Shown: positions 5,504-27,600 of the stretch, one piece after another
How the letters are laid out: the number at the start of each line of letters is the position of its first letter
Position numbering within the stretch: the stretch's first letter is position 1
Made by a program: the position numbers and the translations under genes
Source: Prolixibacteraceae bacterium
GTDB lineage: Bacteria; Bacteroidota; Bacteroidia; Bacteroidales; Prolixibacteraceae
Direction of reading: 5' to 3'
Length of the DNA: 60,088 nucleotides
Assembly (NCBI GenBank): GCA_019163175.1
Contig: JAFLKN010000031.1
Location: 1 to 60,088 of the forward strand
Notes under the pieces: generated by a model
What the model was told of the DNA's origin: nothing
The model's database searches: none
Seen by the model: the letters and a program-made list of their open reading frames with translations, nothing else

Positions 5504-6283
5504 CTACTTTTTAACAACAATTCGTTTGGCCAGCGAATTGTCCAGCAAAACCAACTGCTGTGCGGCTAATTTGGCTAACAGATTTGCACCTTCAACGCTT
5601 AAATGTGTATCGTCTTTGCGTCCTTCCGGAAACTTATCGGTTGGCTGAGTCCAAAGGTAAATACCTTTCGAAGCTTCGTCGCCAAGTGCAGTAACAGCAC
5701 CGGCAGTGAGTAATTGCAAATCGACCAAAGGGACATTCATTTCTGCGGCAACTTGCCGAACCACCAATGGATAATTTCCATGAGTATCGGTTAAAAAACC
5801 ATTTTCAAACTTCCGGCGTACAATTGAGGTAAAAAGAATCGGATTCGCTCCTTTCTCACGTGTTTCGCGCACAAAACATTCCAGATTCCTGCGATAACTA
5901 GTAAATGGCTCAGTATATCGGGTTGAATCCAGAATTTTCTCGTCATTGTGTCCAAACTGGATAAACACATAATCGCCCGCCTGAAGCGAATCAAGAACCG
6001 ATTTCCAGCGACCTTCGGAAATAAAACTTTTCGTACTTCTGCCATTTAATGCCCTGTTTTTAATTATCACCGTTTGGTCGACAAAGGCAGGAAATGCCTG
6101 GCACCAGCCGATTTCAGGAGCCACTTCCGCCTTTTTGTTGGCCATGGTCGAATCACCAATCGTAAACACAGTGATTTTTTTACCCTGATTTTCAGTGACT
6201 GCCTGCTGTGCTGAAACCATTTCAGAAGACAAGACTAAAAAAAGCAGGATTGTAACTATTGATTGGATTTTTCGAATTTGCAT
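5504..6283 (-). CDS. CE12-type pectin/rhamnogalacturonan acetylesterase
   Basis: This SGNH-fold esterase of 259 residues carries the block I motif GDSTMANK, the block II/III motifs (KNRALNGRSTKSF and FGHND) and the final catalytic pair in DDTHLS. This pattern is that of CE12 rhamnogalacturonan acetylesterases, which remove acetyl groups from galacturonic acid. A signal peptide precedes the domain (residues 1-25, ending SAQQA), so the enzyme is exported. It is the last gene of the long pectin operon. A second, diverged CE12 enzyme lies at 13022-13813; the two may differ in acetyl position. Confidence 0.88.
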   Translation of the reverse strand: MQIRKIQSIVTILLFLVLSSEMVSAQQAVTENQGKKITVFTIGDSTMANKKAEVAPEIGWCQAFPAFVDQTVIIKNRALNGRSTKSFISEGRWKSVLDSLQAGDYVFIQFGHNDEKILDSTRYTEPFTSYRRNLECFVRETREKGANPILFTSIVRRKFENGFLTDTHGNYPLVVRQVAAEMNVPLVDLQLLTAGAVTALGDEASKGIYLWTQPTDKFPEGRKDDTHLSVEGANLLAKLAAQQLVLLDNSLAKRIVVKK

Positions 6284-8071: not shown

Positions 8072-9055
8072 TTACTGACCACTGAATTTCTTCACCCATT
8101 CTCCCAATATCTTTTCAGGCGTATATTCTTTAGCCTCCACCTCGGTTAACTGGTGCGACCAGCTTACTCTTTTGCCTATCGAAGCTCCTGACCCGGTATT
8201 TTTGTATTCGGCAAATGATGCCGTTTTCTCATTATCCGGTTTACCCCAATTATTCCAGCCTTCAGGTTTAATCATGCCACCCAATTCGCATCGTAGAAAC
8301 GCTGATTTCCCGAACGGTCGCCATGGACGCCCCAAATAGAATGATGCTTCCGAAGCGGTTCCTGTAATTTTGCAATCGAGGAAAACAAAGCCAAAAAGCG
8401 TTCCTTCATTGGTTGACGGAGCAGTTATAAAACCATGATCTTTACATACAATTTCGCATTGATCAAAAACTGCAGTTGACCAGCCAAAAATGAAATCGAC
8501 GGTTCCTTCAATTAGACAATTTTTATAGTACTGGCGGCTTTTTTCTCCATGTGGGTAAAGCGTATCCTGAAATCCGAGGAAGCGGCAGTTGATAAAAGCA
8601 ACCATATCGCCATCGACCCGAACAGCCACTGCCTGACCAACTGGTCCAGATGAATTCTCGAATGTGATATTTTCGGCACGGAAACCATCGCCAAACACGA
8701 AAAACGAAGTTGAACCGGTTGTTCCAATTTCTTCTCCAAAGCGATTTTTCTTCAAAGCAAAATCGTCGTAAGTCAGGATGGTTTGATCGCGATCTTCGCC
8801 GATAAAAACAACATTGGTCTTGCTTCCGGCCAGTACCAGTTTTTCCTTGTAAGTACCTTTCTTAATGAAAATCCTTGTTTCATTCTTCCTGAAATCGGGC
8901 ACTGCATTGATGGCTTCCTGAACAGTTCGGAAATCACCGGAGCCATCGGGAGCCACAACAAAATGGTAGTCGGCGGCAAAAGCAGAACACGCCAAGACCA
9001 GTAAAAATGCAACACTACAGATTTGCTTTAAATATTTCAATATCATTTTATTCAT
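8072..9055 (-). CDS. CE8 pectin methylesterase, copy 1
   Basis: The enzyme removes methyl esters from homogalacturonan. CE8 motifs are present in order: GPVGQAVAV, GFQDTL with a catalytic Asp, DFIFG with the second catalytic Asp, and LGRPW. I prefer the start at 9055 (MNKMILKYLKQ) or 9046, since either gives a clear signal peptide ending SAFA. The longer frame to 9079 would begin next to a repeat element. The product is about 327 residues, normal for bacterial CE8. A second CE8 lies at 10923-11876, separated only by the GH43 gene; they are alike in layout but clearly diverged. Confidence 0.92.
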   Translation of the reverse strand: MNKMILKYLKQICSVAFLLVLACSAFAADYHFVVAPDGSGDFRTVQEAINAVPDFRKNETRIFIKKGTYKEKLVLAGSKTNVVFIGEDRDQTILTYDDFALKKNRFGEEIGTTGSTSFFVFGDGFRAENITFENSSGPVGQAVAVRVDGDMVAFINCRFLGFQDTLYPHGEKSRQYYKNCLIEGTVDFIFGWSTAVFDQCEIVCKDHGFITAPSTNEGTLFGFVFLDCKITGTASEASFYLGRPWRPFGKSAFLRCELGGMIKPEGWNNWGKPDNEKTASFAEYKNTGSGASIGKRVSWSHQLTEVEAKEYTPEKILGEWVKKFSGQ

Positions 9056-9081
9056 CCTATTTACAAACATTTTTACCATTC

Positions 9082-9250: not shown

Positions 9251-9286
9251 ATCTGTCTTCTGTCTCCGGACTTCCGTCTTCGGTCT
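9251..9286. repeat. Degenerate short-period repeat
   Basis: Five loose copies of a 6-8 bp unit (TCTGTCT/TCTGTCTCCGGACT/TCCGTCT/TCGGTCT) run up to the stop codon of the GH43 gene. No coding or binding role is evident. Confidence 0.4.
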
Positions 9287-10910
9287 ATTTTTCCACCCTG
9301 AACCAGTCAATATCAGCAGAGCCGGCATCGTTGATCACACCTTCGCGAAGGGCATAAAACCCAACTTTGGCGCCAATCCATTTTCCTTCACGGGCTTTGA
9401 ATACATTTCCAAGGTTGGTAAACGAATTTCCATCCAAACTATAGCTGAACTGACACTCGGCTCCTTTTCTTACTATTAATCTAAAATAAACGGTATTCGA
9501 TTCAATTGCAGGTCCGGCAACCAATTCTTCGGCTGTGCCTTTATCCGCATTTTTACAGGTTGCTGTATAAAGATTCAGTTTGCCATTTTCACGTTTTACA
9601 GTTAATCGGCCGTAATCCAAACCCATCACAATCAATCCAACTTCTTCCTTGTCGAAGCGGGAGTCGAAAGTCAGTTTGGTTGTTGCTGTGAATTCCTGTG
9701 CAGGAAATTTCTGCAAAAGCATATTCGAAACATCCCAAAGATTTTTCATTTCTACCGGACGGGGAATACAATTCAACCTGTAAAAACCCAGATTTCCGGA
9801 GGAAAAGCCCCATGTGGTTTGGTAATTGGCGTGCCATTGCCATTGCAAACCCAACTCATTTCCGTTAAACTCGTCACTTTCAGGAGGTGTCATTTTGGGG
9901 TAGGTTTTACCCACATTGGGTTTTTTATAAATTCTGACAGGCTCGCCACAACCGTCGCCATCAGCATCAACGCCAATCACTGGCCAGTCGTTTACCCATT
10001 TCATGGGATTGAGATGTAATACGCGGCCGTAAGCGCCCAAATCCTGAAAGTTTAGGAACCAGTTTTCACCAGTTTTGGTATCAATCCAGGCACCCTGATG
10101 TGGTCCGTTTATGTCGGTTTTGCCCTGAGCCATTATAATCTTATCTTCATAAGGACCAAAGATATTTTTCGAGCGCATTACCATTTGCCAGCCCGGAGCA
10201 ACACCACCTGCAGGAGCAAAAATGTAATACCAGCCGTTGCGTTTATAGACTTTAGGCCCCTCGATTGTCGGGTGATTTTTATGCCCATCGATCAACATCA
10301 CGCTGTTTCCGATCAATTTGGTACCGTCAACAGCCATTTGGTTCAGGAGAATAACACTCTTCACTCCGGCCCGACTTCCGGCCAAAGCATAAGCCAAATA
10401 AGCTTTGCCATCTTCGTCCCAAAAGGGCGATGGATCAATCAAACCTTTTCCGGCTTGAATGAGCAAAGGATCCGACCACGGCCCTTTCGGATTGGAGGCT
10501 TTTACCATGTAAATCCCGAAATCAGGATCAGGATAATAAATGTAAAACTCATTATTGTGAAACCTGATGCACGGGGCCCAAACACCACCGCCATGCTGAA
10601 CTTTATTGAACACGTCGAACGGAGGTTGTTTTTCCAGGGCGTAAGCAATCAATTCCCAATTGACCAAATCTTTGGAATGAAGAATTGGTAATCCAGGTAC
10701 ACAATTGAATGACGAGGCAGTGAGGTAATAATCGTCGCCCACCCGAATGGCATCGGGATCAGAATAATCGGCATACAACACCGGATTGGTATAGGTTCCG
10801 TCGCCATTGTCGGAAACCCATGATTTGGAGATAGAATTGTTTGTTTGTGCTGTGGCATTCCACGAAACAGCAACAGTCAAAGCTAAACAAAGTGAATAAA
10901 ATCGGTCCAT
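9285..10910 (-). CDS. GH43 exo-glycosidase with C-terminal beta-sandwich
   Basis: This secreted 541-residue protein has the GH43 five-bladed propeller: the base Asp in YADYSDPDAIR near residue 52, the pKa-setting Asp in LIDPSPFWDEDGKAYL, and the general acid Glu in TIEGPKVYKRNGWYY. The layout and the C-terminal laminin/DUF1349-like beta-sandwich (from about residue 345, LGLQWQWHANYQ onward) resemble subfamily GH43_12, whose known activities are alpha-arabinofuranosidase or beta-xylosidase. In this pectin operon it would trim arabinose or xylose side groups. The precise sugar is not shown by sequence. Confidence 0.9.
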   Translation of the reverse strand: MDRFYSLCLALTVAVSWNATAQTNNSISKSWVSDNGDGTYTNPVLYADYSDPDAIRVGDDYYLTASSFNCVPGLPILHSKDLVNWELIAYALEKQPPFDVFNKVQHGGGVWAPCIRFHNNEFYIYYPDPDFGIYMVKASNPKGPWSDPLLIQAGKGLIDPSPFWDEDGKAYLAYALAGSRAGVKSVILLNQMAVDGTKLIGNSVMLIDGHKNHPTIEGPKVYKRNGWYYIFAPAGGVAPGWQMVMRSKNIFGPYEDKIIMAQGKTDINGPHQGAWIDTKTGENWFLNFQDLGAYGRVLHLNPMKWVNDWPVIGVDADGDGCGEPVRIYKKPNVGKTYPKMTPPESDEFNGNELGLQWQWHANYQTTWGFSSGNLGFYRLNCIPRPVEMKNLWDVSNMLLQKFPAQEFTATTKLTFDSRFDKEEVGLIVMGLDYGRLTVKRENGKLNLYTATCKNADKGTAEELVAGPAIESNTVYFRLIVRKGAECQFSYSLDGNSFTNLGNVFKAREGKWIGAKVGFYALREGVINDAGSADIDWFRVEK

Positions 10911-10922
10911 ATTTATAGTTTT

Positions 10923-11876
10923 TTACAATTCATACCATTTCTTTCCGCTGGAAATTTCCCAACTGAAAGGCGCGAACATCTTTTCTTTCGTATAGTTTGC
11001 AGCATCTTTTTTTGTCAGTTCGCGTGACCATATTACCCGTTTTGAGCGGTCCGCACTTGCTCCCGTATTTTTAAATTCCTGAAATGTAACCGTTTTTTCA
11101 TTTTCGGCATTCGACCAATTGTCCCAACCTTCAGGAACGATGAACGAACCCATTTCGCAATTCAGGAAAGCCACTTTGGCAAATCCGTGCCACGGACGGC
11201 CCAAATAAACTTTGCTAATTCCTTCTGCGGCTGTTATTTTGCAATCGAGAAAAACGTACCCAAAGGCTTTGCCCTGAGCTGTGCTGGCAGCCGTTAAGTA
11301 TGAATCAGCTTTAGCATGAATCGTACATTTTTCAAAAAGTGCAGTAGCCTCGCCAAAAATGAAATCGGTCGTTCCTTCGATGTAGCAATTATAAAAATAC
11401 TGGCGGCCAATTCTTCCGGCGGCATAAACAGTATCCTGATTTCCAAGGAAACGGCAGTTCACAAACACGCAACGATCGCCTTCGACATACAGAGCCAATG
11501 CCTGCCCAACAGGTCCGGCTGTGTTTTCAACGGTAATGTTTTCCATGCGGAAATCGCCCGCTTCAACTTTCAGTGTGTAAGTATAAAACGTGCTGTTTCG
11601 TCCACGGTTAATTTTATTGAAATGATCGTCCCAACTGATGATGGTTTTCTCAACGCTCTCGCCAATAATGGACAAATGAGTGTTGCCTTCCAGAATAGCG
11701 ACTTTTTCGCGATAAACGCCATTTTTAACCTGAATGGTAAACGGCTTATCGGGAAAAATGCGGCAGGCATCAATGGCCTGTTGAATGGTTTTGTAATCGC
11801 CCGAACCATCCTGAGCAACTACTAAATCGTATTTTTCTGCAGAAAAGGCCATTAACGGAAGAATTAAAAAGCTCAT
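10923..11876 (-). CDS. CE8 pectin methylesterase, copy 2
   Basis: This is a second pectin methylesterase of 317 residues with the motifs GPVGQALAL, GNQDTVY, DFIFGEAT and LGRPWHGFA. I place the start at 11876, where MSFLILPLMAFSAEK gives a signal peptide. The frame stays open to 11975, but its first 33 codons run through an intergenic repeat (11882-11948) and look like translated spacer. It lies 12 bp upstream of GH43 in the direction of transcription. The pair of CE8 enzymes may differ in processivity or in tolerance of acetyl groups; that is inference. Confidence 0.92.
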   Translation of the reverse strand: MSFLILPLMAFSAEKYDLVVAQDGSGDYKTIQQAIDACRIFPDKPFTIQVKNGVYREKVAILEGNTHLSIIGESVEKTIISWDDHFNKINRGRNSTFYTYTLKVEAGDFRMENITVENTAGPVGQALALYVEGDRCVFVNCRFLGNQDTVYAAGRIGRQYFYNCYIEGTTDFIFGEATALFEKCTIHAKADSYLTAASTAQGKAFGYVFLDCKITAAEGISKVYLGRPWHGFAKVAFLNCEMGSFIVPEGWDNWSNAENEKTVTFQEFKNTGASADRSKRVIWSRELTKKDAANYTKEKMFAPFSWEISSGKKWYEL

Positions 11877-11881
11877 TTTTA

Positions 11882-11948
11882 AACACAAAGACACTAAGAC
11901 ACTATGTATTTGTTGTTTTAACTTTGTGGCTTCGTGGCTTCGTGTTCC
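11882..11948. repeat. Degenerate 9-bp-type repeat extending a reading frame
   Basis: The block has AAAGACACTAAGACACTA on one side and CTTTGTGGCTTCGTGGCTTCGTG on the other, i.e. tandem variants of a unit near GGCTTCGTG. Spacers of this kind occur in many Bacteroidota genomes. It is open in the frame of the CE8 gene downstream, which makes that gene look 33 codons too long. Confidence 0.5.
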
Positions 11949-11978
11949 AATTTTTCTTTCGATCATATCATTCAATTT

Positions 11979-12974
11979 CTATTTCTTCAATATTTTATCC
12001 AGAAAGTCGGTCATATATTTAACGGTTGGCTCAAACCACGGATGAAACAACCAAAACGGATGCGGTGTATTTTCGATGGTATGAACTTCAGTATAAATTT
12101 TGTGCTTACTCAAAATTGCAATCACACTGTCGCGGCCAAAGTGGAAACGAGGCAAAGCGCTGTTGATAAATAATATAGGTGGTGTATTTTTACCAACATA
12201 TTGAATGGGTGACGCCTCTATCCATTTTTCCGAACTTTGATTAAAAGTTGTTCCAAACCACAATGCTCCAGCCGAGCGTTTGGCCGTTTCTTCGTCCTTC
12301 CCCTTTTCATCAGGCGTATTAAAATCCAGAACTCCGTCAATGTCGATTATGGCTTGAACTGCCGATGATACTCCGGGATTCCCTTCATTCCCATCGAACT
12401 TTTCCACCCCGACTGTTGCGCCAACCAAAGAAGCTAACTGCCCACCAGCAGAACTTCCTGCTATTGCTATTTTTTTCGGATTAATACCGTATTTTTTGGC
12501 ATTGGCCCTAATGAAACGAACCGCGGCCTTAATGTCGTAAACGGCCGCTGGGTGAAGGGCTTCGGGCGACAAACGATGCTCGATTGTTGCGGTTACATAA
12601 CCTTTTGCTGCAATTTGCTGGGCCAGCGGAATGTCCATCGATTTGTTTCCCGAACGCCAGCCACCACCATGAACAAGCAGTAAAACAGGATATTTACCGG
12701 GTTTGGCCGGACGAAAAAGATCGAGATGCAACTCGCGCTTACCAAATGGAGTGTTGGGCAAGGTGGCATACACAATGTCCTTTTCTTCCACAACACCGGG
12801 TGGCAAGGATGGTTTGACAATCTGCGCCTGCGGAAATTCCTTTTTTATTTTGATCCAGGCCATGTAGGGCGTAAACGATGTATCGCGCGGAATACCATTG
12901 ATTTTAACAAGTTGTGCATTCGATATAAGGCCAATCAGGCAAAATGCCAAAAGAATAAGGCTAATCCGTTTCAT
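11979..12974 (-). CDS. Secreted alpha/beta-hydrolase esterase
   Basis: The fold is that of the hormone-sensitive-lipase/acetyl-esterase group: oxyanion motif LLVHGGGWRSG, nucleophile elbow AGSSAGG (Ser), and a C-terminal His in NTPHPFWLFHPW. It probably removes acetyl or other ester groups from pectin or its fragments. I choose the start at 12974 (MKRISLILLAF, signal peptide ending SNA). The open frame runs back to 13022, but those codons translate an AT-rich spacer of the type found between other genes here. About 331 residues. It is similar in layout to esterases found in other plant-polysaccharide loci; the ester cleaved is not known. Confidence 0.82.
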   Translation of the reverse strand: MKRISLILLAFCLIGLISNAQLVKINGIPRDTSFTPYMAWIKIKKEFPQAQIVKPSLPPGVVEEKDIVYATLPNTPFGKRELHLDLFRPAKPGKYPVLLLVHGGGWRSGNKSMDIPLAQQIAAKGYVTATIEHRLSPEALHPAAVYDIKAAVRFIRANAKKYGINPKKIAIAGSSAGGQLASLVGATVGVEKFDGNEGNPGVSSAVQAIIDIDGVLDFNTPDEKGKDEETAKRSAGALWFGTTFNQSSEKWIEASPIQYVGKNTPPILFINSALPRFHFGRDSVIAILSKHKIYTEVHTIENTPHPFWLFHPWFEPTVKYMTDFLDKILKK

Positions 12975-13021
12975 CATTTTGAATCTCGAATCCTGAATTT
13001 TGAGTTTTAAATCCATAATCA

Positions 13022-13813
13022 TTAATCTTTTTTCAACTTCTTTAACCCGTCAAAAACCAATTGAGCCACCGCTTTTCCACCGGCAGGCTGAAAATGCGTA
13101 TTGTCTTTTTGCCCGTCGGGATAAGCCTGATAGGTGTTGGCCGGAAGGTTCATAAAATAATTGGTAGTGACAAAATCCTGCCCTTTCTTTGTAAAAAAGT
13201 TACACGACAATTGGGTAAGGTCGATCAACAGAACATTCATTTCAGTAGCAACATCTTTCACTGCCTGTGGATATTCACCATGGCAGCTTTTCAAAACTCC
13301 ATCTTCCCAGGGATAATTACGGTTCACGGGAGTCATCAAAACTGGAATTCCACCTTTCTGGCGGGTTTGCGAAACGTACAAACGCAGAAACTCTTTATAT
13401 CCTTCCACATCTACATAACGCTCGGTTTTATCCTTTGCTGCATCATTATGACCAAATGAAATGATCACCAAATCACCGGCTTGCAATTCAGTATAAATAG
13501 CCCGCCAACGGCCTTCCTGAAAAAAGGTGCGGGTACTTCTACCCCCTTTGGCGCGGTCGTCAACAATTGCGCTGTCAGCCTTAATTATTCCTGAAACTTT
13601 GTTCAGACTGTCTTTCCTGAAGAATTGCTGAAATACCTGTCCCCAGCCAACCAGCGGAAATCGTTTGGTTTGATAATCGTCTTCCAATGCATAATTCGCA
13701 CAGGTTGAATCGCCGGCCAAAAACAATTTAACCGGTCTTTTTTTCTCCGACACCATTCCCGATATCAAACCGGCAACAATCAGAAACAATGCGATTAAGG
13801 TATATTTCTTCAT
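13022..13813 (-). CDS. CE12-type acetylesterase, copy 2
   Basis: This SGNH hydrolase of 263 residues has FLAGDSTCANY (nucleophile Ser), GWGQVF, DRAKGGRSTRTF, SFGHND and DNTHFQPAGG (catalytic Asp/His). This is the CE12 set, as in the copy at 5504-6283. The N-terminus (MKKYTLIALFLIVAGLISGMVS) is a signal peptide or anchor. It sits 1 bp after the stop codon of the STN-esterase gene, showing tight co-transcription. Substrate is probably acetylated galacturonan. Confidence 0.88.
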   Translation of the reverse strand: MKKYTLIALFLIVAGLISGMVSEKKRPVKLFLAGDSTCANYALEDDYQTKRFPLVGWGQVFQQFFRKDSLNKVSGIIKADSAIVDDRAKGGRSTRTFFQEGRWRAIYTELQAGDLVIISFGHNDAAKDKTERYVDVEGYKEFLRLYVSQTRQKGGIPVLMTPVNRNYPWEDGVLKSCHGEYPQAVKDVATEMNVLLIDLTQLSCNFFTKKGQDFVTTNYFMNLPANTYQAYPDGQKDNTHFQPAGGKAVAQLVFDGLKKLKKD

Positions 13814-13814: not shown

Positions 13815-15197
13815 TTATTTATTTTTTAATAGTGCTTTTAAGGCCTCAAGCCTATGAATGGCATGAGCAGGCAAACGTTCGCCATTTTTGCCAAAAACCA
13901 GCATGGCCGATTTGGGTTCGATAACCGATTTCGATTCATCAACTAATCCTGAAGCCGCTTTTACCGCGTTGATATTCAAACTAAACTGGCGGGCAAAAAA
14001 CTCATAAACTGCCTGACGTTTCGATGGACCGTAATCGTGTCCTTCCTTTATTAGATGAACATTCTCTACCAATTCAGGCTTTCCAAACAAAGTATAGACC
14101 TTTTTCAGGTATGGAAATTCGATTTCAGGAACATTGGCCGTCCAGTCACCGCCGTCGGAAACAACCAACATTGGACGTGGAGCTGCCATAGCGGCAATTT
14201 CCACATTGTTGGTGCCCCATTCTCCACACGAATGAATCGGCATTCCGCTTTCACAAGGGCAACCGCCAAAGAACCAAGAGGAAACCATCACCACCGGAGC
14301 ACTCACTGCAATTCGAGGATCAAGTGCTGTCATCACAAATGTTTGGGTTCCACCGCCGGAAGCTCCGGTCATGCCAATTCGCTTCGGATCAACATAGGGT
14401 AATGCACTCAGGAAATCAAGTATCCGGATGCTGTTCAAGGTCTGCATGGTTGGCGCCAAAATCGTGCGATGATCTTCAAAAGCAAACTGAAGACTCTCTT
14501 CTCCTTTGGCAAACATGTCGTAACTAAAAACTACTGCGCCCATGCGTGCCAAAGTAGCGCTCAACAGTTGCGAACTTTCGCCATAATGCTGAATTTCGCC
14601 ATGTCCCTGGGCAAGCATCACAGCTGGAAAAGGACCTTTCCCTTTGAGCGGTCGGTATAATGTTCCGCTGACAAATACTCCGGGAAGGCTTTCTATGGCA
14701 ACGTTTTCGGCAATGTATCCATCCAACTGGCGTTTATTGGCATAGATCGGGCTGGAATTTACCTTTGTCGGTAACGGTAATAATCCGAGTGTTGAGAGGA
14801 AACATTGCTGCAATTCGGCGCTGCGTTTCCACCAATCCGGAAGCGCCGGATATAACGAGAGCAAACGGTTCAGGTGTTTTTGTCCATCTTCGACCGAACG
14901 GCGATGGTACTGAAAAGCTTCAATTTTATAAGTACCGTCTCCGCTTTTCGAAAAAACCAAATCGAGTGGAGCCAAAACAGCTTGCAAGGTTGTCTCAACG
15001 TCGTCCTTAAAACGCCACTGCGCATAATTGACCGAGCGATCGGTGACCAACTTCTCATCAAAACTGAGTTTGACATGAAAGCGGTTTTCGACCTGATTTA
15101 ATACCTCTTTCAGTGGTTTCCGAAAATTTTCCTCAACGGTTTGGGCAAATAAGTTATTTGCAATTAGCAGGGAAACAGCAAGTATAAATGTTCTCAT
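13815..15197 (-). CDS. Fusion of STN-like domain and alpha/beta-hydrolase esterase
   Basis: The 460-residue secreted protein has two parts. After a signal peptide (ending FAQ, residue 19), residues about 23-95 look like an STN/secretin-N domain: FRKPLKEVLNQVENRF, then LSFDEKLV, then VETTLQAVLAPLDLVFS and a final beta-strand. STN domains are usual at the N-terminus of TonB-dependent receptors that signal to FecR-type anti-sigma factors. Residues about 140-410 are an esterase with QGHGE, nucleophile elbow GMTGASGGG (Ser280), and His387 in KEGHDYG. The esterase resembles acetyl-xylan-esterase/dienelactone-hydrolase-like enzymes. Why an STN domain is attached is unknown. Confidence 0.8.
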   Translation of the reverse strand: MRTFILAVSLLIANNLFAQTVEENFRKPLKEVLNQVENRFHVKLSFDEKLVTDRSVNYAQWRFKDDVETTLQAVLAPLDLVFSKSGDGTYKIEAFQYHRRSVEDGQKHLNRLLSLYPALPDWWKRSAELQQCFLSTLGLLPLPTKVNSSPIYANKRQLDGYIAENVAIESLPGVFVSGTLYRPLKGKGPFPAVMLAQGHGEIQHYGESSQLLSATLARMGAVVFSYDMFAKGEESLQFAFEDHRTILAPTMQTLNSIRILDFLSALPYVDPKRIGMTGASGGGTQTFVMTALDPRIAVSAPVVMVSSWFFGGCPCESGMPIHSCGEWGTNNVEIAAMAAPRPMLVVSDGGDWTANVPEIEFPYLKKVYTLFGKPELVENVHLIKEGHDYGPSKRQAVYEFFARQFSLNINAVKAASGLVDESKSVIEPKSAMLVFGKNGERLPAHAIHRLEALKALLKNK

Positions 15198-15221: not shown

Positions 15222-17693
15222 TCATTTCTGTTTCAGGATCAAAACCCAATCCTCACCATCCTTTTGCTCACCAGGTGGATCGAATTCATGAATGTCCTTC
15301 TTTTTGAAAGTACCAGAACCAACAAACTTGCCGTTCCGTGGATTATACCAGTCAAATTCAAAATCATCACCACCCAACTGATCAGACTTTAGTCTAATTG
15401 TCCGGCCATTGTAAGTATAAACCAACAAACAGTTCTTCCCTTTGAGAGCCACCAAATGATTGTATCGTTCTCCGGGCTCGGCCAATATGGATTGATCAGG
15501 AACGAGTTCTTCAAGATGATAGTCAAGCATTAAACTTTTCAGGAATTTTAACTGACTGGCGCCTGGGCTGCTAAGCGCTTCGGTCCAAGGCATTCGTGCG
15601 CCATAAGCTCCGGCTTTTGGTGCGGAAGTATAAAACTGCATCACCGAATTATGACCGTAAGTATAACCACAAGCTCCCGAAAAAACTGACCAATAAGCAT
15701 ATCGGCGGACATCGTTATCGTTCCAACGAACCTGCAACGTGTCGTGCAATCCATGTGGAATTCCTTCGTAGGATGGTTCCCCGTCCAACGTAGGTTTTAC
15801 GGGACTTTTGATGTAATCAGATAGAACATACCGCCAATTGTCTTCACCGTAGCGAAGATCAGAGCGGGCAGTATCCTGAGCATAGTTTCGGTGCCCCGAC
15901 TGAAACATATTAAAATCGAGCCAGGACTCATTGTGAAACCAGGTTGACGACTGAGTGCGTCCAAAAGGATGATAGGTAACCAGATGATTGGGATCGTATT
16001 TTTTCAGCGTATTCCCAATCGTTTTCCAGATTTGAATGGAATCGTCACCACGAAGGTCACCACCGTTCATCCACACAATATTGGATTTATCCTTGTACCG
16101 TTTTGCTAGAAATTCAGCATACGCTTCAGCCTGTGTTCTGGTAACATGACCAGCTTTTACGTTCGATCCCCAAACCGGAACCAGTGCCAGGAATAATCCT
16201 TTGTTTTCTGCCAGATCAATAGCAAAATCAAGATTTTCCCAATACCCGCCATTCTTAGGAGTGCCTATATTTTTTCGAACTAATGCCGAATCTCCCTGAA
16301 TATTGACGGCAGACAGGCTGTGCAAAACCATGACCTGAATGACATTGAACCCTTTCTGTTTGCGGTCTTCCAGGTATTTTTCAGTTTCTTCCCGATTCAG
16401 TTTACTTAAAAGTAGCCAGCCAGTATCACCTAACCAGAAAAAGGGTTGATCTCCAAGATTTAAAAATCTTCCGTTTTCGGAAACTGAAAGCTTTTGAACT
16501 TTAGATTTCTGAGCTGGATTAGAAAATTTCTTTTCCCACTTCGGATATTTATCAAGTATTTTTTGTGGAGCGTAAGTGTACCAGGCGTAACCCACCCGGC
16601 GCTCGCGGCTCACTTCGGCCATAGAATAAAGGAACTTGCTGTTTCGGTCACAAAACAAAGGCTTTTGGGTCCGCAATTCATAAAAACGTGTCCAGATTGG
16701 TGGAGCAGATGAATCGGTCACCACCACCCGATCAGACGAATACGACATGTATTTCGATTTTTCAGTTGGGGCTTTCACTGTCTCAACACGGGTATTTAAA
16801 ATCTTTGAGTCCTGAAACCATTTTACAGCAGCCTGTATGGAATTAATGATCTTTTGGTCAGGCTTTTCAATGCTCATCAGGAACTGAACAATCCCTGCAC
16901 TTTCTCCATTGCAAATACTTGGCGGCTCGAAAGCCCTTGCCCATGCCGGTTGTAGCGTAATTTCATCATGTTGCTGGCACCAAACAGTAAGTCGTCCATT
17001 ATCCACAATCTGCATTTTCAGGATACATTCCAGTCCTTTTTCGTAAGCAACTTTTACATTTTCACGAAGGTTATTGCCGACAAACGTAAAGTTCGGATTG
17101 TCATCAACGATTTTTTTCAGCATTTCCATAATTCCTATGTAAGCTCCATCATTAAAAGTGATCCGACGGCTGTAATTACCTTGTTCTATCGGGAAATACT
17201 GAGGCCAGCCTCCGTTTGCATACTGAGCCCCAAGCACAAAACTGATTCCTTTGATGCAGGCATCTTTATACTTTTCAATGTGAGTCAACGAATAAGCCGT
17301 GGCCAGATATTCGATATGTGTATAAGTTGTGGAATTATCGAAAGTGGTGTGCGTCTGATTTTTAGTTCGTACCAAACTATCAATTTGTTCAGGCAAAAGA
17401 ATGGCCTGCATATCGTAGTTTTTAGGCCAGCCACCATTGTTACGCTGGTAAAGCAAAATGTTGTCGGCAATCTTTGTTATTTCAGCCTCCGTATATCTGG
17501 CTTGATTTTGTTTGGGTTGTATGATATTTCCATTGTCGCGAATGCCGTACCAATGGCGCATACTATCACCAAACGGTTCCATGCTGATAGCATTTGTTAT
17601 GCCATCAGTAATTGTCTGAGCGTGCATAAAGCTCGATGCATTCAGGAGCAATGCCAAACACAATAATCTTACATTTAGAAGTTTTCTCATCAT
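15222..17693 (-). CDS. PL10 pectate lyase fused to GH140-like apiosidase
   Basis: The 823-residue protein carries two catalytic modules after a signal peptide (ending MHA, residue 25). Residues about 40-390 are a PL10 pectate lyase: NNGGWPKNYD (85-94), QYANGGWPQYFP (157-168) and WARAFEPPSICNGES (251-265) with the Arg expected to act as base. Residues about 400-730 match the DUF4038/GH140 (beta/alpha)8 domain: FFWLGDTGWLL, WMNGGDLRGD with candidate acid Asp546, DGEPSYEG with candidate nucleophile Glu639. A C-terminal beta-sandwich (735-820) follows. GH140 is known to release apiose from rhamnogalacturonan-II chains. The fusion suggests one enzyme that strips apiose and cuts the galacturonan beneath. 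It overlaps the upstream GH28 stop codon by 4 bp. Confidence 0.88.
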   Translation of the reverse strand: MMRKLLNVRLLCLALLLNASSFMHAQTITDGITNAISMEPFGDSMRHWYGIRDNGNIIQPKQNQARYTEAEITKIADNILLYQRNNGGWPKNYDMQAILLPEQIDSLVRTKNQTHTTFDNSTTYTHIEYLATAYSLTHIEKYKDACIKGISFVLGAQYANGGWPQYFPIEQGNYSRRITFNDGAYIGIMEMLKKIVDDNPNFTFVGNNLRENVKVAYEKGLECILKMQIVDNGRLTVWCQQHDEITLQPAWARAFEPPSICNGESAGIVQFLMSIEKPDQKIINSIQAAVKWFQDSKILNTRVETVKAPTEKSKYMSYSSDRVVVTDSSAPPIWTRFYELRTQKPLFCDRNSKFLYSMAEVSRERRVGYAWYTYAPQKILDKYPKWEKKFSNPAQKSKVQKLSVSENGRFLNLGDQPFFWLGDTGWLLLSKLNREETEKYLEDRKQKGFNVIQVMVLHSLSAVNIQGDSALVRKNIGTPKNGGYWENLDFAIDLAENKGLFLALVPVWGSNVKAGHVTRTQAEAYAEFLAKRYKDKSNIVWMNGGDLRGDDSIQIWKTIGNTLKKYDPNHLVTYHPFGRTQSSTWFHNESWLDFNMFQSGHRNYAQDTARSDLRYGEDNWRYVLSDYIKSPVKPTLDGEPSYEGIPHGLHDTLQVRWNDNDVRRYAYWSVFSGACGYTYGHNSVMQFYTSAPKAGAYGARMPWTEALSSPGASQLKFLKSLMLDYHLEELVPDQSILAEPGERYNHLVALKGKNCLLVYTYNGRTIRLKSDQLGGDDFEFDWYNPRNGKFVGSGTFKKKDIHEFDPPGEQKDGEDWVLILKQK

Positions 17694-19033
17694 TCAATAA
17701 TCTTGTCGTTGACTTTCACATTGATCAGCTTCACTCCATCGATAAGGCTTTTGTTGTAAGCACTGTTTTTAGCCTTGATATTTAAACCACTGAACGTGAA
17801 ATCAGCCAGCCGGTTGTATTGGTTTATATCGATATCGTAAAACACGTCGCAGGTCATGTCAATATTTTTCATCGAGATGTGTTTGCAATAGGAAAGAAGC
17901 ATGTCTTTCCTCCCTTTCAGGTCGAAAAACTGTGTCCATGGTTTGGCGTAAATCATGCTGTGCGCCTGTCCTTTCACATTTTCCACCGAAACATATTCAT
18001 ACAATTGAGGTGTATCGGGCCGCATTTTCAGCCACAGCAGGCGCTCGGCCTCATTCACATGGCAATTTCGCATCAGAATATTTTTGTTGTGGATGGCTTC
18101 GCTGCCACAGGTGAGTGCTGAATGACAAAATCCAAACTCGCAGTTTTCGATGATTATATTGGTATTTTCTCCGTTGTTCGGATCGGAGTCGGCCCAAGGC
18201 CCTTTGCCACCTTTCAAAGCAATGGCGTCATCGTTCACCGACAGGTAGCAGCCTTTAATCAACACATTGGAGCATACGTCGAGGTCGATGGCATCGGTGC
18301 TTGGTGCCCGGACCGGTTTGCTTGGTGAAAAAATGTGCAGATCGAGAATCTTGATGTTCTTGCATTGATAATAATGACTGGTCCAAAATCCTGAATTATG
18401 GAGCTTAACATCCTGAACCTGCACATCATTCGATTTCCAAATAAAGACCAGCCGCGGCCGGGAAACTTCAAGGTTTGTGCATTTCGGATTTTCTTTCCGG
18501 CGCTGCCAAAAGGCTTCCCAATATTTCAGGCCATTTCCGTCAATGGTTCCTTTTCCTGAAATGGTGAAACCGTCAACTCCGTAAGCATTGACCAGTGCAG
18601 CGTAATAATTGAGGTTTTGTCCTTCCATTCGTGATGGAATCAGCGGGTAGTCGGCAATATTGTCGGAACCTTTCAAAACCGCGCCTTCAGAAACATACAG
18701 ATGGGTATGTGGTTTGAAAAACAGCGCACCACTTCTGAAAGTACCTTTAGGTACAACAATTACACCACCACCCTGACTGCTGGCCAGATCGATCACTTTT
18801 TGAATAGCCAAAGTCTGAACCAAAGTACTATCGGCAACAGCTCCAAAATCAGTTATTGTAAACTGTTTGCCAAGGTCTTCCGGTTTCACTTTTTTAACTT
18901 TGGAAAACCATTCCGGAATTTTTGTTCCGTCAGGAAAAGTCTCTGTTTTTTTGCTTCGGGCACTGCATTGAAGCGTAAAACCCAACATGCAAATAATCAG
19001 GAAATAGATGCTCTTCATGGTGATCTTCTTCAA
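17690..19033 (-). CDS. Divergent GH28-family hydrolase
   Basis: This 447-residue protein has the beta-helix of GH28 but altered motifs: STDAIDLD (Asp247), NDDAIALKGG (Asp268-269), FGFCHSALTCGSEA (His304 kept, the glycines around it lost) and LWLKMRP (Lys336) where RIK is usual. The aspartate triad is therefore present while the subsite around His and Lys has changed, so the enzyme may act on a branched or decorated galacturonan and not on plain polygalacturonic acid. A signal peptide with a Cys at residue 23 (LQCSA) might make it a lipoprotein. It lies between the SGNH and PL10-GH140 genes. Confidence 0.85.
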   Translation of the reverse strand: MKKITMKSIYFLIICMLGFTLQCSARSKKTETFPDGTKIPEWFSKVKKVKPEDLGKQFTITDFGAVADSTLVQTLAIQKVIDLASSQGGGVIVVPKGTFRSGALFFKPHTHLYVSEGAVLKGSDNIADYPLIPSRMEGQNLNYYAALVNAYGVDGFTISGKGTIDGNGLKYWEAFWQRRKENPKCTNLEVSRPRLVFIWKSNDVQVQDVKLHNSGFWTSHYYQCKNIKILDLHIFSPSKPVRAPSTDAIDLDVCSNVLIKGCYLSVNDDAIALKGGKGPWADSDPNNGENTNIIIENCEFGFCHSALTCGSEAIHNKNILMRNCHVNEAERLLWLKMRPDTPQLYEYVSVENVKGQAHSMIYAKPWTQFFDLKGRKDMLLSYCKHISMKNIDMTCDVFYDIDINQYNRLADFTFSGLNIKAKNSAYNKSLIDGVKLINVKVNDKIIE

Positions 19034-19041: not shown

Positions 19042-19890
19042 TTACTCCTGTACAAACGTTGACGGCAAGGCCTGTAACTGATACAAAATAGTCTTTGCCA
19101 ATCGGTAATTTCCTTTGGTATTTGGATGTAACCGATCGGTATCAGCATGATTAAAATATTGAACCTGCGAATCGGAAAGCGGGTACAAACCACTGACCGA
19201 ATACAGATCAATCAATGGTACGGCCCAGTTCATGGCAGCCTGTTTCAAAGCATCCACATAGTCATCGAGATACAGTCCTTCGCCGTTGGCAAAATTTTCG
19301 TCCGGTTGCACATTGGTATCACTGAATTTTGCAAATCCGCGGTGAATTGGTGTTAAAATCACAATCTGTTGCTCAGGAAATTTCGCTTTCAAAAAGGCCA
19401 TTGCCTTGTTGACTCTACCACAAAAAGTTGTATCATTTTCGATTTGAACCCGGTATTTGCGTGTTACAATTTTCCCGTTGTGATTGGTCTCTTTGCTTGT
19501 TTCGCTGAAAAAACTACCCATGGGTATACCGTGATTATAGTCGTTTGTTCCGGCAAAAATGAAGATGGCATCCACCGCTGTGCCTTTTTCTTTGTACAGC
19601 TTAACTGCCTGATTGTAAATATTATTCCATTGATGACCGCTGATTCCATAAACAAAAGGCTGAATTTCAAGCCACTCCGAAAGGTATTCCCAGTAAATTT
19701 TATTCGATCCGTTTCTTGATCGCTGTGTCATTGAATCACCCAGATAAGCAACACGTTTCCCTTGCCAATGAGTGGTCTCAACCTTTTCGGCAGAAGTATC
19801 TGCAATTCCAGAGCTACTCCCGGAAATAACCTGAGTGAACCCTGTCAGCATGATCAGTAAGGCAAATACACTAAAACCTATTTTTTTCAT
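19042..19890 (-). CDS. SGNH/GDSL hydrolase, secreted
   Basis: A 282-residue esterase with YLGDSMTQR (nucleophile Ser), the block II Gly in GISGH, block III IFAGTNDY and the catalytic Asp/His in DTDRLHPNTKG. It has a signal peptide (to about residue 22) and a Ser-rich linker before the domain. It is distinct from the two CE12 enzymes and fits the broader GDSL family, which includes acetylesterases in pectin loci. It starts the second block of the pectin operon, after a 224-bp spacer. Confidence 0.85.
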   Translation of the reverse strand: MKKIGFSVFALLIMLTGFTQVISGSSSGIADTSAEKVETTHWQGKRVAYLGDSMTQRSRNGSNKIYWEYLSEWLEIQPFVYGISGHQWNNIYNQAVKLYKEKGTAVDAIFIFAGTNDYNHGIPMGSFFSETSKETNHNGKIVTRKYRVQIENDTTFCGRVNKAMAFLKAKFPEQQIVILTPIHRGFAKFSDTNVQPDENFANGEGLYLDDYVDALKQAAMNWAVPLIDLYSVSGLYPLSDSQVQYFNHADTDRLHPNTKGNYRLAKTILYQLQALPSTFVQE

Positions 19891-21786: not shown

Positions 21787-22443
21787 TTAAAGATTTAAAA
21801 ATTCTTTGGGTTTTAAAGCCTTTGGTGAAATTCGGATTTGTGAAATGGCTCCTTTAAACCACGATTGTTCGTTTAACCTGACTCCAATTGAAGTTTTTCC
21901 GGTTTGTATGGGCGAAAATTTGATTGAACCTTCCAGTTCTTTTTGGCCATTTATGTACGTATAAAGCTTGCCGTGATCGACCACATACGCCACATGAACC
22001 CATTGATTAATTGGATGAAGCATTGTTGGATCAATCAGTGTCATTTTTTGATTACCCGACTGGACAAAGGCATCGAAATACCAATCGGTGGCAGTTGTCC
22101 GAATTTCGAGAAGGACCCGATCTCCACGGATTTCACCCGTATGAAAAAATCGTTGCTCAAAATTTCCACCGCTTTCAGGATAAAAAAGAACTTCGATCGT
22201 GAATTGTTTGAGGTCGGCCAATGGGGTATCTGTTAAAAACAGACCATCGCCAATTCCGTTGAATTCGATTACTTTTCCGTATTTACTTTCAATGATCTGT
22301 GGATTTCCAGCGATCCGGACTTCAGATTTTGAAGCTACCAGTTCAGCGATATTCCATTGAATCACTTTCGACCCTTTTGATTTCGCTGAACCAAAAAGAA
22401 CGGAAAACAGGAAAAAGGAAAAAAAGAAAAGCCGGATTTTCAC
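21787..22443 (-). CDS. LamG-like (concanavalin-fold) secreted protein
   Basis: The 218-residue protein has a signal peptide (ending GSAKS) and one LamG/concanavalin-type jelly roll: FNGIGDGLFLTDTPL, FTIEVLFYPESGG, WVHVAYVVDHGKLYTYINGQ and ISQIRISPKALKPKEF. Such domains bind sugar or protein or occur in some lyases; I see no catalytic pattern. It lies right after SusD, behind the hairpin at 22458-22499. A surface glycan-binding role like that of SusE/F-type proteins is possible, although there is no lipobox Cys. Confidence 0.75.
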   Translation of the reverse strand: MKIRLFFFSFFLFSVLFGSAKSKGSKVIQWNIAELVASKSEVRIAGNPQIIESKYGKVIEFNGIGDGLFLTDTPLADLKQFTIEVLFYPESGGNFEQRFFHTGEIRGDRVLLEIRTTATDWYFDAFVQSGNQKMTLIDPTMLHPINQWVHVAYVVDHGKLYTYINGQKELEGSIKFSPIQTGKTSIGVRLNEQSWFKGAISQIRISPKALKPKEFLNL

Positions 22444-22515: not shown

Positions 22516-24576
22516 TTACTTATTTGGCAATCCGTAACCATTCGTTACTGTACCTTTTGATTGGTCAATTACAGTAAGTGGCATCGCGTGGAAGTAGCGA
22601 GGTGCGGCATTTTCGCGACCAACTACCCCGTCCAGAATCGCAGCATTCAACATTGCTTTGGCATTGGCATCATTCCAAACCTTTCTGCCCCACTCCACTT
22701 GAGTATATCCATCAGCCTTTAATGCGGTTGCTTCAGCACTAGCAGGATCGATGTAGTTATACAAGCCTTTGATAGCCAGATTTTTTGATGTAGCAGTATG
22801 TGCAGTCGCTCCCCAATTGAAAATACCGCGCCAACCCGGGTAAAGTGCCGGGTCATTTTCGTTGGTACTTTCCTGGGTGACAACAGCGGTGGCGCTTCCG
22901 CCTACCTGAACATATTTAGTCCAAACATAGTTGGAAATGGTTCTGCCACTTGGGAATGTATAGTATCCGTTAGCCTGAAGGCCTGCAGCCATACTGGCCA
23001 TTTCCTGACGAACCGCAATTGCTCTTTCGTTGAACTTGCCTGAACGAATCATGTCCCACCGAATATCACCTTCACCAAGTAATTCTAATTTACGTTCGTT
23101 ATAGACAGCATTTAACAGCGCTTCGCCTGAGAGTCCGGTAATATTCTTGCTTGCATTGCCAAAGGCTCTTGTACGAATTTGGTTGACCAATGCAATTGCC
23201 CCTGCATTATCGCTTCCTGAAATTGCTTTTGCTTCTGCAAGCATAAGCATTGCGTCAGCCATTCTCATAATCACGTAGTTGATACCTGAAGAGCGGTTGG
23301 CTGCATTGGGATATAATGGTACATCCCCTCTGTTTTTATCCCATTTATTGGTACTTGGTCCACCACCACCAATACGGGTTCCAACACCAAGCGGAATCAG
23401 GTTTTCCTGCCCGGTTGCCGCGTTGCTTCCAGTTACAACCATACTTGGGTCACGACGTTTGTCACCCACTTCGTAACCATTATAGAAGAACGAAGGAATG
23501 ATGCGAATAGCAGCAAAGGTATTTAAGTAAGCCATCACAGAACTATTGGAACCCGGACGTCCCATACTGTATCCATATTCAGCGTTTCCAATGCCAGCTA
23601 CAGTTCCAATTTCAAAGAGCGTTTCAGGACTTTTACGTCTGGAGTTAATATCCTGAAAATATTTCTGGAAAGGATTGTTGGCTGCCCTGGTATCTGTTGT
23701 GATCAATGTTGCAGTTCCTTTTTGGGTATTCACCGCAGCATTCAGGTATTGCTCGGCCACTCTGATGTAATCCAGGTAGTCTTTACGACGCGCATAAACA
23801 CATGTTCCGTCATTCGTTCCTTTTTCTTCAAACTGCACATTGCCATACAAGCCCTGCATATCGGTACGAATGGTCTGCCATCCTCCTGCATGAAGTGCAA
23901 TTTCACCTATCAAAGCATTAACGTAGGTTCGGCTCAAACGTTCAGTAGTAATACCACCTTGACCTAATACATACATTTTACCCTCAACAGCTTTGAGTTC
24001 TTCTAAAATTTTATCGATGATTACAAAGCGTGAGGTCAATTCGTACGAGTCCACAATTTTATTTTCATAACCAAACGGGACATCCCCAAAGTGACGCACC
24101 AATTCCCAGGCGCAATAAGCCCACAAAGTTTTCGCTTCACCGTATACCTGAGTCCAGGCAGTAGGTGTGCCACCTGCTGCTTCTGTTTTGTATTCGGGTT
24201 TTTCTGCAATCAGATCGGCAATACGGGCAGCTCGTGCAAGAGCAATATTTAAACTATTGTACAAACCCGCACCCGCATTAATAGTTGTTGCAGTTGGTTG
24301 CACCCTGGCAATAACATTGTTTGCAGTAGGATATTCACTCATATATTCAGCATCAGATCCCAGCGGATCCTGCCAGTTGTAATTTCCGCCATGTACAGCG
24401 TTGGTGCGATACTCTGCATATGCCCATGATAACGCTTTAAAGGCCTCATTAGGAGTCGACATTACAAAGTTATCGTCGGCCTGGCCTTCATTCGTTACAT
24501 CCAGATAGTCATTGCACCCTGTAAACAGGAAGGGCAACAACGCTATGCTTATATATATTATTATTTTTTTCATCAT
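22516..24576 (-). CDS. SusD-like outer-membrane glycan-binding lipoprotein
   Basis: A 686-residue lipoprotein with lipobox LFTGC (Cys21) followed by NDYLDVTNEG, the standard SusD opening. Tetratricopeptide-like helices follow (AKTLWAYCAWELVRHFGDVPF), and the RagB/SusD C-terminal domain includes YVIMRMADAMLMLAEAKA and YNERKLELLGEGDIRWDMIR. It would cap the SusC channel and present pectin oligomers. At 686 residues it is larger than the usual 500-600, with a long insertion before the C-terminal part. Confidence 0.95.
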   Translation of the reverse strand: MMKKIIIYISIALLPFLFTGCNDYLDVTNEGQADDNFVMSTPNEAFKALSWAYAEYRTNAVHGGNYNWQDPLGSDAEYMSEYPTANNVIARVQPTATTINAGAGLYNSLNIALARAARIADLIAEKPEYKTEAAGGTPTAWTQVYGEAKTLWAYCAWELVRHFGDVPFGYENKIVDSYELTSRFVIIDKILEELKAVEGKMYVLGQGGITTERLSRTYVNALIGEIALHAGGWQTIRTDMQGLYGNVQFEEKGTNDGTCVYARRKDYLDYIRVAEQYLNAAVNTQKGTATLITTDTRAANNPFQKYFQDINSRRKSPETLFEIGTVAGIGNAEYGYSMGRPGSNSSVMAYLNTFAAIRIIPSFFYNGYEVGDKRRDPSMVVTGSNAATGQENLIPLGVGTRIGGGGPSTNKWDKNRGDVPLYPNAANRSSGINYVIMRMADAMLMLAEAKAISGSDNAGAIALVNQIRTRAFGNASKNITGLSGEALLNAVYNERKLELLGEGDIRWDMIRSGKFNERAIAVRQEMASMAAGLQANGYYTFPSGRTISNYVWTKYVQVGGSATAVVTQESTNENDPALYPGWRGIFNWGATAHTATSKNLAIKGLYNYIDPASAEATALKADGYTQVEWGRKVWNDANAKAMLNAAILDGVVGRENAAPRYFHAMPLTVIDQSKGTVTNGYGLPNK

Positions 24577-24611: not shown

Positions 24612-27600
24612 TTAGAAAGTAGCATTTAATCCGATCACAAACTGACGGGCACGAGGATAAGTTCCCCAGTCAAGTCCCGGAGTAGGATAACGGGCGTTGT
24701 TCATGTTATCGTTGGCATTAACTTCTGGGTCAAGTCCTGAATAACCGGTCAATGTAAATACATTGTAAATGGCTCCATAAACGCGGATATTGCTTGCTTT
24801 GATCTTGTTCATCAACAGTTTTGGCAAGGTATAGCCCAAAGTCAAAGTATTGAGGCGAAGGTACGAACCGTCTTCAATACCAATATCTGACACATAACCT
24901 TGTTGCAGATAAGTTGATGGCAGAGTCGCATTTACATTGGCAGAATTCAGTTTTTCGGGAGTAGTAAGTTTTACCAAATTGCCATTCTGAATTTCAAACA
25001 GGGTATAGGAATCTTTTACAATAGCCAGTTTGTTACCATACAAACCACCACCTTTGTTACCGTTAAAAAGCGTTGCTAATTTATTTGCATTGTAAATATC
25101 ATTACCATAGCTCCAATTAAAGTACAAGCCAAGATCGAAGTTCTTGTAATTAGTGTTGATATTGAATCCACCAGTATGAACGGCATTCATATTACCTATT
25201 TCAACATAGTCTTTTTCATCAATCACACCGTCTTTAAAAGAATCAACAAATTTTGGCAAACCGGGATAAGCCTGTTGTGCACCGGGAACCAAACCTCCGC
25301 GGTAGGAAACGAAAGCTTTTGAAAGATCGGCCACACCTTGTTTTAAAGTGTACATGCCGGTGTTAGCATCGAAATCGAAATCTTCGGGAGTGTAATATCC
25401 TTTACCATCCATTTTATACCCCATTACAATACCAACAGGTTTTCCTTCCAGCAAACGATAATCTGAACTTGGAATACCCGACTGCAGGAACTGAGTTCCA
25501 TAGGCACTTTGGAGCCCCTCGGCCAGTTCGTCGATATTACCTCTGTTAAAGTTGATGTTGGCTCCGGCTGTAATATCCCAATCTTTGTTTTTAAATACTA
25601 CACCTGAAAGTGAAAGTTCTAAACCCTTATTACTGGTTTGACCAATGTTGGCATAAGTGGTTGTAAACCCGCTTATAGACGGAATATCTGTCAGCATCAA
25701 CAGGTCTTTTGTGGTATTTTTATACACATCGATAGTACCTCTTAACCGATTATCCAAAAGTGTAAAATCGACCCCAATGTTACGTGTAATGGTGGTTTCC
25801 CATTTCAAATCGCGGTTGGCCATTTGACTGGATGCCAAATCATAAGAAGGCAGAAGAACACCGTTCATACCATATTGCCAGCGAGTGTCACTCTCTGATG
25901 TCCACAATTGCGACCATTGGTCAGCACTAATGGCGTCATTTCCAACTTCACCGTATGATACCCGCAGTTTTAAATCGTCGAGCCAATTGGCACTTTCCAG
26001 GAACGATTCTTCAGAAATGCGCCAGGCCAAAGAAGCAGCTGGGAAATATCCCCAACGATGTTCGGGAGAAAAGTTTGAAGAACCGTCGGCACGGAATGTC
26101 GCGGCAATCATGTATTTGTCAAGAAGTGAATAATTTGCCCGACCGAAATAAGACATGATACGGCTTGGAGTGCTAACACCTGTTGCTGTAACAAGGTCAG
26201 CCCCGTATTGTGAAATCATGGCAAAAGCATTGTCTTTGGTAAAATTGTTTGGGAACTTTCTTCCGGAAATACGCATGTTTGTTCCTCCGGAGTTTGTAAC
26301 TTCCTGTCCAGCTAAAATATTGATCCGATGAATCTCATTCAGCTTAAGTTCATATCCCAGAGTGTTCACCCAACGCATTCCCCAACTGTCATTTTTTCGG
26401 TAATCGGCATCGCCTGCCCACTTAAATGATCCATCACCATTCAGGTAGTTTTCTTCATTAAAGCTTGAAGGAGTAGGTCCTCTCCATATTTTATTTTGTG
26501 AGAAATTGCGCGAAACAGTCAATTCGGTGCGATAGTTTAAGCCTTTTACAAGGTTCCAGTTTAAACCGGCTGTCCCAAGGATTGATTGGTTCCAGGTAAT
26601 GTTCTCACGGTCTTTAATAACTTTTACCGGGTTGTACATGTCATCAAATACGAATGCCTCTTCACCCATCGACGCGTCATTCAGAAATGCCAGATCGCCT
26701 TTTATATTTTCTCTAGTTAAAGGACGAAAGCGGTAAGATCCCGAAAGAGACGAACCATAACCACTAACTGTACCTTCATTACCCATGTTTTCTCTATCGG
26801 TATAACGTACATCTAAGTTAAAATCGAGCTTTTCGCTTATTTTTTGATCTAACTTAAATGTGGCTGAAGCCCTTTTTGAATAGGAGTTGAGCTTCATACC
26901 ATCTTCGTCCATGTAGCTAACGGCAAAAAGCACCTTCGTTTTATTGGTACCTCCGGAAATGGTAAGGTCGTGATTGTGTGAAAATGAGCTCTTATACACC
27001 TCTTCCTGAAGGTTATAGGCCGACATATTTTTATAAGTATCGATACCTCCGGAGTTACTGCCAGTGAAGGCTCCAACGCCAAATAATTTTTGAAATGGAG
27101 TTGTATAGGTCGTTCCGAAATATACATCGAGAAGTCCCCATCTTGATGTCACATAATCATAAGGACTCAAAGTCTCAAGATATCCGGTTGGGGTATTGAA
27201 TTTTGAATACCCGCTATAACTCACAGAAACCGCGCCTTCTTTACCCTTTTTAGTCGTAACGAGGATAACCCCATTTGCACCACGTGCACCAAAAATGGCT
27301 GTTGAAGATGCATCTTTCAGAACATCAACGCTTTCAATCATTTCTGACGGAATAAGGCTCATGTTGCCCGGTATTCCATCAATCAATACAAGCGGTTCGT
27401 TGCTTTGGGAGATAGAACCTCCACCACGCACCCGAATCGAGATTTCCGCGTCGGGACGACCGTCCTGTGATGTTACATTCACACCCGGAAGACGTCCTTG
27501 AAGTGCCATTGCCGCATTGGAAACAGGAATGGATGCAAGTTGTTCTCCGGAAACTGAAGCAACTGATCCAGTCAAATCCCGCTTTTTAACAGTTCCGTAT

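Follow-up and report, generated by a model that had tools for sequence, protein, structure and literature searches.

A single open reading frame of a Prolixibacteraceae bacterium joins a PL10 pectate lyase to a GH140 apiosidase, which raises the question of what polysaccharide such an enzyme would act on. For a lyase and an apiosidase to share a substrate chain, apiose has to be attached to galacturonan, as in rhamnogalacturonan-II (RG-II) or in apiogalacturonan, a main pectin of duckweeds and some seagrasses. Below, the window is the whole stretch of 60,088 nucleotides that was analysed. Labels beginning with L denote loci, L002 being the window itself; a contig scan confirmed 594 relatives, of which the best 80 were kept.

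Fusion protein and catalytic modules

The fusion has a signal-peptide-like start, followed by the PL10 module (residues 83-380), a linker of approximately residues 381-400, the GH140 module (405-727) and a C-terminal domain (731-820). The pectate lyase profile PF09492 matches over its entire length (324 bits, 1.2e-96, profile 1-292 of 292) and the Apiosidase profile PF13204 over nearly all of it (372 bits against a cut-off of 26.5, 3.9e-111, profile 1-318 of 320), whereas the C-terminal domain matches PF12904 (1.4e-25). The NCBIfam pectate lyase model TIGR02474 gave 331.7 bits with a cut-off of 189.8. The top PDB sequence matches were 3kzs/5msy (GH140, 436.5 bits) and the pectate lyase 1r76 (202.7 bits).

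A preliminary description had considered both modules intact, pointing to Asp546 and Glu639 in GH140 and to an Arg region at residues 251-265 in PL10. In the alignment to 3kzs, D546 and E639 match chain residues 167 and 264, which with a 20-residue offset correspond to D187 and E284 of BT1012, the pair that we take to be catalytic in GH140. In an alignment of 60 GH140 rows the D546 column holds D in 59 and N in one, and the E639 column holds E in all 60. In the PL10 module, D119 aligns with the Asp mutated to Ala in 1gxo, and R253, inside the named Arg region, aligns with the PL10 Arg R524, presumably the catalytic base. The Apiosidase domain with the Asp/Glu pair places one half in GH140, and the Pec_lyase profile with the Asp and Arg places the other in PL10. 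Judging from the near-whole profiles and the residues kept in these alignments, both modules look intact, as described.

We considered an assembly artefact and ruled it out, as the same fused frame occurs in L005, L007 and L008, which come from other assemblies. Moreover, the GH140 module does not begin with a signal peptide, whereas the separate GH140s of L010 and L006 by eye start with one; this also argues against an artefact.

The AlphaFold2 model of the fusion has a mean pLDDT of 84.0 and a pTM of 0.62. In the GH140 half most residues exceed 90. Confidence is poor in the PL10 half, with pLDDT below 50 at residues 330-372 and at 252-257, the latter including R253, so the model gives no confirmation of the geometry of the PL10 site. 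A Foldseek search with the model returned BT_1012 first (5msy_B, TM 0.90 by target length, 47% identity) and the PL10 structures 1r76 and 1gxo at TM 0.58. The matches also included 8t9w, a GH140 member from a mangrove metagenome.

Gene cluster around the fusion

The fusion lies in a run of 16 minus-strand genes, from 5504 to 29165, with intergenic gaps of -4 to 224 bases (Table 1). A SusC/SusD pair and carbohydrate enzymes on the same strand identify it as a Bacteroidota polysaccharide utilization locus (PUL). The fusion overlaps the neighboring GH28 gene by 4 bases. The flanks hold household genes for the most part.

Table 1. Features of the PUL and its flank, with the evidence for each assignment
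Feature	Position	Strand	Evidence
GDSL esterase (CE12-like)	5504..6283	-	Pfam
GH28, polygalacturonase/galacturonidase type	6342..8024	-	Pfam; NF049892 270.5 bits, under cut-off 800
Pectin methylesterase (CE8)	8072..9079	-	PF01095 264 bits
GH43 with GH43_C2	9285..10910	-	Pfam; nearest PDB 6mly, 6ms3
Pectin methylesterase (CE8)	10923..11975	-	PF01095 245 bits
BD-FAE-type esterase	11979..13022	-	PF20434 169 bits
GDSL esterase, putative CE12-like pectin acetylesterase	13022..13813	-	PF13472; PaeY model 87 bits, under cut-off
Alpha/beta-hydrolase esterase, BT1017-like, without DUF3826 half	13815..15197	-	6goc 372.3 bits, residues 18-455
PL10-GH140 fusion, 823 aa	15222..17693	-	ATG start; Pfam, NCBIfam and PDB sequence searches
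GH28, BT4153-type rhamnogalacturonidase	17690..19033	-	NF049899 771.8 bits, cut-off 650
GDSL esterase	19042..19890	-	Pfam
Divergent PL10-like protein, 537 aa	20115..21728	-	PF09492 82 bits
LamG (concanavalin-like) protein	21787..22443	-	PF13385 70 bits
SusD-like lipoprotein	22516..24576	-	PF07980
SusC-like TonB-dependent transporter	24612..27944	-	PF07715, PF13715
GH105, YteR-like unsaturated (rhamno)galacturonyl hydrolase	27972..29165	-	PF07470 425 bits; 4wu0 390 bits
261-aa ORF, possibly an unusual small protein or a remnant	31969..32754	-	match to GH127 middle domain only

The GH43 may be a xylosidase or an arabinofuranosidase. The GH28 next to the fusion scores above the cut-off of the model for BT4153 rhamnogalacturonidase, so some RG-I is probably processed too. 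In alignments to 1r76 and 1gxm the divergent PL10-like protein retains the Asp and Arg of PL10; it has copies with 62-79% identity in L005, L012, L013, L014, L018 and L132, and may represent a new PL10-related group. The BT1017-like esterase resembles 6goc, which we take to be the RG-II methylesterase BT1017, and has copies with 76-89% identity in the sister PULs L009, L011 and L017, which lack GH140.

Arrangement of the modules in related loci

Among the best 80 of 594 relatives, L005 and L008 encode PL10, GH140 and BD-FAE as one ORF, and L007 encodes PL10-GH140 as one ORF with BD-FAE next door. In L006, L012 and L013, PL10 adjoins an ORF encoding GH140-BD-FAE. Both modules thus occur with this PUL in six loci, and the BD-FAE-type esterase appears as a third partner, fused to GH140 in five of them (L005, L006, L008, L012 and L013). 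Two related PULs, L010 and L138, have GH140 and lack PL10 of this type; the PULs of L009 (a short contig, at its edge), L011, L014, L017, L132 and L140 have PL10 and no GH140. The "single enzyme" of the preliminary description, with PL10 and GH140 in one ORF, is only one among several arrangements across these loci.

No match spanning PL10 and GH140 was found in 394 other genomes of a phylum sample, 392 of an order sample (at most two candidates scored per genome in either) or 60 of a sample of relatives; the three samples overlap. G423 of the relatives sample, presumably the genome of L012, has PL10 and GH140 side by side. Among 23 sampled genomes of the genus, five have only this PL10, two only this GH140, and one, that of the window, both.

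Other partners were also seen. In L018 (9968-12577), within a related PUL, PL10 is joined to a GH43 carrying GH43_C2, and DUF6298 comes next; in L029 (9833-13984) GH140 lies inside a 1383-aa ORF of Chitinophaga japonensis and is hence fused to another partner. A second arrangement, GH28-PL10-BNR-GH43-CE8-GDSL-GH140-GDSL, is found in Labilibaculum L058 (2455-12194, by full Pfam scan) and in the Marinifilaceae MAG L069. We read this as a second recruitment of GH140 and possibly a second cluster for apiose-bearing pectin.

L006, L007 and L013 appear to come from freshwater bodies. L006 is from Loclat, and we read L007 (AM) and L013 (MJ) as the lakes Alinen Mustajarvi and Mekkojarvi, both listed in the available part of PMC8121793; Umea, the place name attached to L012, does not appear there.

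Phylogeny of the GH140 and PL10 modules

The GH140 tree (IQ-TREE, 60 rows, bootstrap not fully settled) left out L002, the duplicates L133-L137, L139 and L144, and matches shorter than 300 residues. Rows were labelled RG-II if a GH143 (BT_1020-like) match above 200 bits lay within the fetched locus; L037 is labelled under this rule though its GH143-like match is weak (38-39% over 342 residues). Thirty-six of the 60 rows carry the label and separate ORFs are usual, in agreement with the preliminary description of GH140 as a separate protein of RG-II degradation. The window falls in a clade of ten with 100/100 support, together with L005-L008, L010, L012, L013, L138 and L015, and none of the 36 RG-II rows is inside it. 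The median identity of the window's GH140 is 68.5% to eight of the nine other members of the clade versus 56.2% to the RG-II rows. Across the 60 rows, the clade and the RG-II rows are told apart by just two alignment columns; a new active site is therefore not apparent. The short loop at residues 477-484 was tried as a diagnostic of the clade and rejected: the window and L138 have 7 residues here and the remaining members of the clade 13-18, but lengths of 7 or 13 also occur in three of the RG-II rows.

The PL10 tree has 37 rows and left out L002, six duplicates and matches below 480 bits. The window's PL10 nests within its own genus among unfused PL10s (support 96/84, 99/88 and 96/93), and given the strongly supported branches the fused state must have changed at least three times. 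These can be several fusions, or one fusion with later splits. The linkers of the window, L007 and L005 fusions are unlike in length and letters, which speaks for several fusions.

Markers of RG-II degradation

PF24067, the GH143 profile, has no match among the 16 proteins of the PUL. Among the ten genomes of the clade, which include incomplete MAGs (88% completeness for G410), a strong GH143 match was found in one (that of L008, 349 and 312 bits), weak matches in three (the window's own genome, 93 bits; those of L007 and L015, 76 and 78-103 bits) and none in six. All four RG-II control genomes gave strong matches, at 403-417 bits. For 11 further GH140 rows outside the clade, four genomes have strong GH143 and six do not (those of L032, L047, L058, L066, L069 and L143; the count omits that of L039); the lack of GH143 is thus not special to the clade. 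The weak 93-bit match of the window's genome is a BT_1020-like propeller protein in L154 (929-11966; C31), where a TonB receptor and a BNR protein resembling sialidases are its neighbours.

Another marker of an RG-II PUL, a BT1017-like methylesterase, is present in the PUL (6goc, 372 bits) as well as in the sister PULs without GH140. DUF6298, a family of RG-II loci, gave nothing over its cut-off in the window's genome (20 bits only) and was found in L012, L013 and L018. We also considered whether the three other GH140s of this genome (C10, C11 and C13) make up an RG-II system, and rejected this, as there was no RG-II marker among the 20 neighbouring proteins scanned.

Proposed function and alternative explanations

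On balance we lean towards a methylated and acetylated homogalacturonan with apiose on its backbone as the target, either apiogalacturonan or a pectin of aquatic plants that bears apiose, and not RG-II, with the fusion as an enzyme of two activities. The fusion would be secreted, probably to the periplasm. The role of its GH140 half would be to take beta-D-apiose, or a side chain linked through apiose, off O-substituted galacturonic acid; the PL10 half would then cleave the freed alpha-1,4-galacturonan by beta-elimination, so that debranching and cutting probably occur in one place. In the predicted pathway, the SusC/SusD pair imports oligosaccharides; the two CE8, the GDSL, BD-FAE and BT1017-like esterases would de-esterify, GH140 and GH43 would debranch, PL10 would cut, and GH105 and GH28 would finish.

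The separate GH140 clade, the content of the locus and the missing GH143 favor apiogalacturonan over RG-II. A GH105 that suits lyase products, the recurrent pairing of PL10 and GH140 in six relatives and the L058/L069 clusters without strong GH143 also count for this explanation. Against it counts that only the window's genome, of 23 sampled in its genus, has both modules. The BT1017-like esterase and the BT4153-like rhamnogalacturonidase do not point to apiogalacturonan alone, and since there are versions of the core PUL that lack GH140, removing apiose seems to be an optional addition to a PUL for decorated homogalacturonan and not its defining job. The linkage is a further point against: in the available text of PMC11229556 the apiose of zosterin is described as O3-linked, whereas BT1012 cuts Api-beta1,2-GalA according to the accessible part of PMC7939467. 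With the E. coli SE15 apulose kinase as query, the best match in the window's genome was the glycerol kinase GlpK, and the SE15 transketolase gave a generic match at 30%; these two queries turned up no apiose catabolism. The apiogalacturonan substrate of the preliminary description is thus partly backed by a GH140 clade apart from the RG-II rows, a homogalacturonan-type PUL and the pairing in six loci, and is weakened by the sister PULs and the two RG-type enzymes.

The same evidence can be read as RG-II debranching at homogalacturonan junctions, where GH140 would clear the apiose-linked chains A and B from the shared backbone, PL10 and GH28 would go on, and the side chains would be discarded or used by neighbours. 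RG-II is kept in play by the BT1017-like esterase, DUF6298 in three related loci and GH140 active-site columns almost identical to those of RG-II loci, to which the strong GH143 in the genome of L008 and the activity of BT1012 on RG-II oligosaccharides, as given in the portion of PMC7939467 at hand, can be added. We nevertheless judge it unlikely, given the separate clade, nine of ten clade genomes without strong GH143, and a genome in which neither DUF6298 over its cut-off nor any RG-II marker among the 20 proteins near the other GH140s was found. As RG-II is a minor share of pectin, a dedicated fusion would also be a large outlay. The PUL could instead serve decorated, xylogalacturonan-like homogalacturonan in general, with GH140 as an interchangeable debranching module for another furanoside or a minor decoration. 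The PULs without GH140, the GH43 in its place in L018 and the existence of GH140 members such as 8t9w, from a mangrove metagenome, fit this, and we still find it distinctly improbable in view of the catalytic pair, the identity to BT1012 in the Foldseek alignment and the mere two columns that differ from the RG-II rows. A reading in which the fusion arose by accident, or at least one module is inactive, would be in keeping with the rarity of the fusion in the three genome samples and the low confidence at 252-257; it is very improbable, as the catalytic residues are kept and fused and adjacent forms persist across seven loci.

Returning to apiose-bearing homogalacturonan, we suggest with slightly less than even confidence that a GH140 lineage left RG-II degradation and became the core of a dedicated Bacteroidota apiogalacturonan PUL, joined repeatedly and in different orders to a homogalacturonan lyase and an esterase. 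PMC6062639 describes duckweed walls as rich in apiogalacturonan and xylogalacturonan and reports, citing Avci 2018, that duckweeds exchange apiogalacturonan for xylogalacturonan. We speculate that PULs swapping GH140 for GH43 beside PL10 would fit this exchange. Our literature search, of titles and abstract openings mostly outside subscription journals, returned no PL10-GH140 fusion, no apiogalacturonan PUL and no defined genetic signature for apiogalacturonan utilization. A GH140 clade outside RG-II that is repeatedly coupled to a pectate lyase offers named enzymes and a genetic signature for testing apiogalacturonan breakdown in fresh water and sea, and the fusion is a candidate tool enzyme for apiose-bearing pectin.

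Comparison with known systems

The GH140 half shares its fold, catalytic pair and C-terminal domain with the RG-II beta-apiosidase BT1012 (3kzs/5msy). BT1012 is a separate protein with kin in GH143 loci, whereas the window's GH140 belongs to another clade, is fused to PL10 and lies in a homogalacturonan-type PUL. The PL10 half has the whole profile and the Asp and Arg of the lyases Pel10A (1gxm) and 1r76, the chains of which carry no GH140. Bacterial attack on apiose-bearing galacturonan, here predicted, has a parallel in PfPL1 of Pseudoalteromonas fuliginea PS47, a lyase reported active on apiogalacturonan (PMC11229556); PfPL1 belongs to family PL1, and the available text of that paper names no apiosidase or GH140 beside it. 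The closest parallels in design are the PL10-GH43 fusion of L018 and the PL10 with GH140-BD-FAE of L006, L012 and L013, which in related PULs likewise couple PL10 to a side-chain remover, with another partner or another joint.
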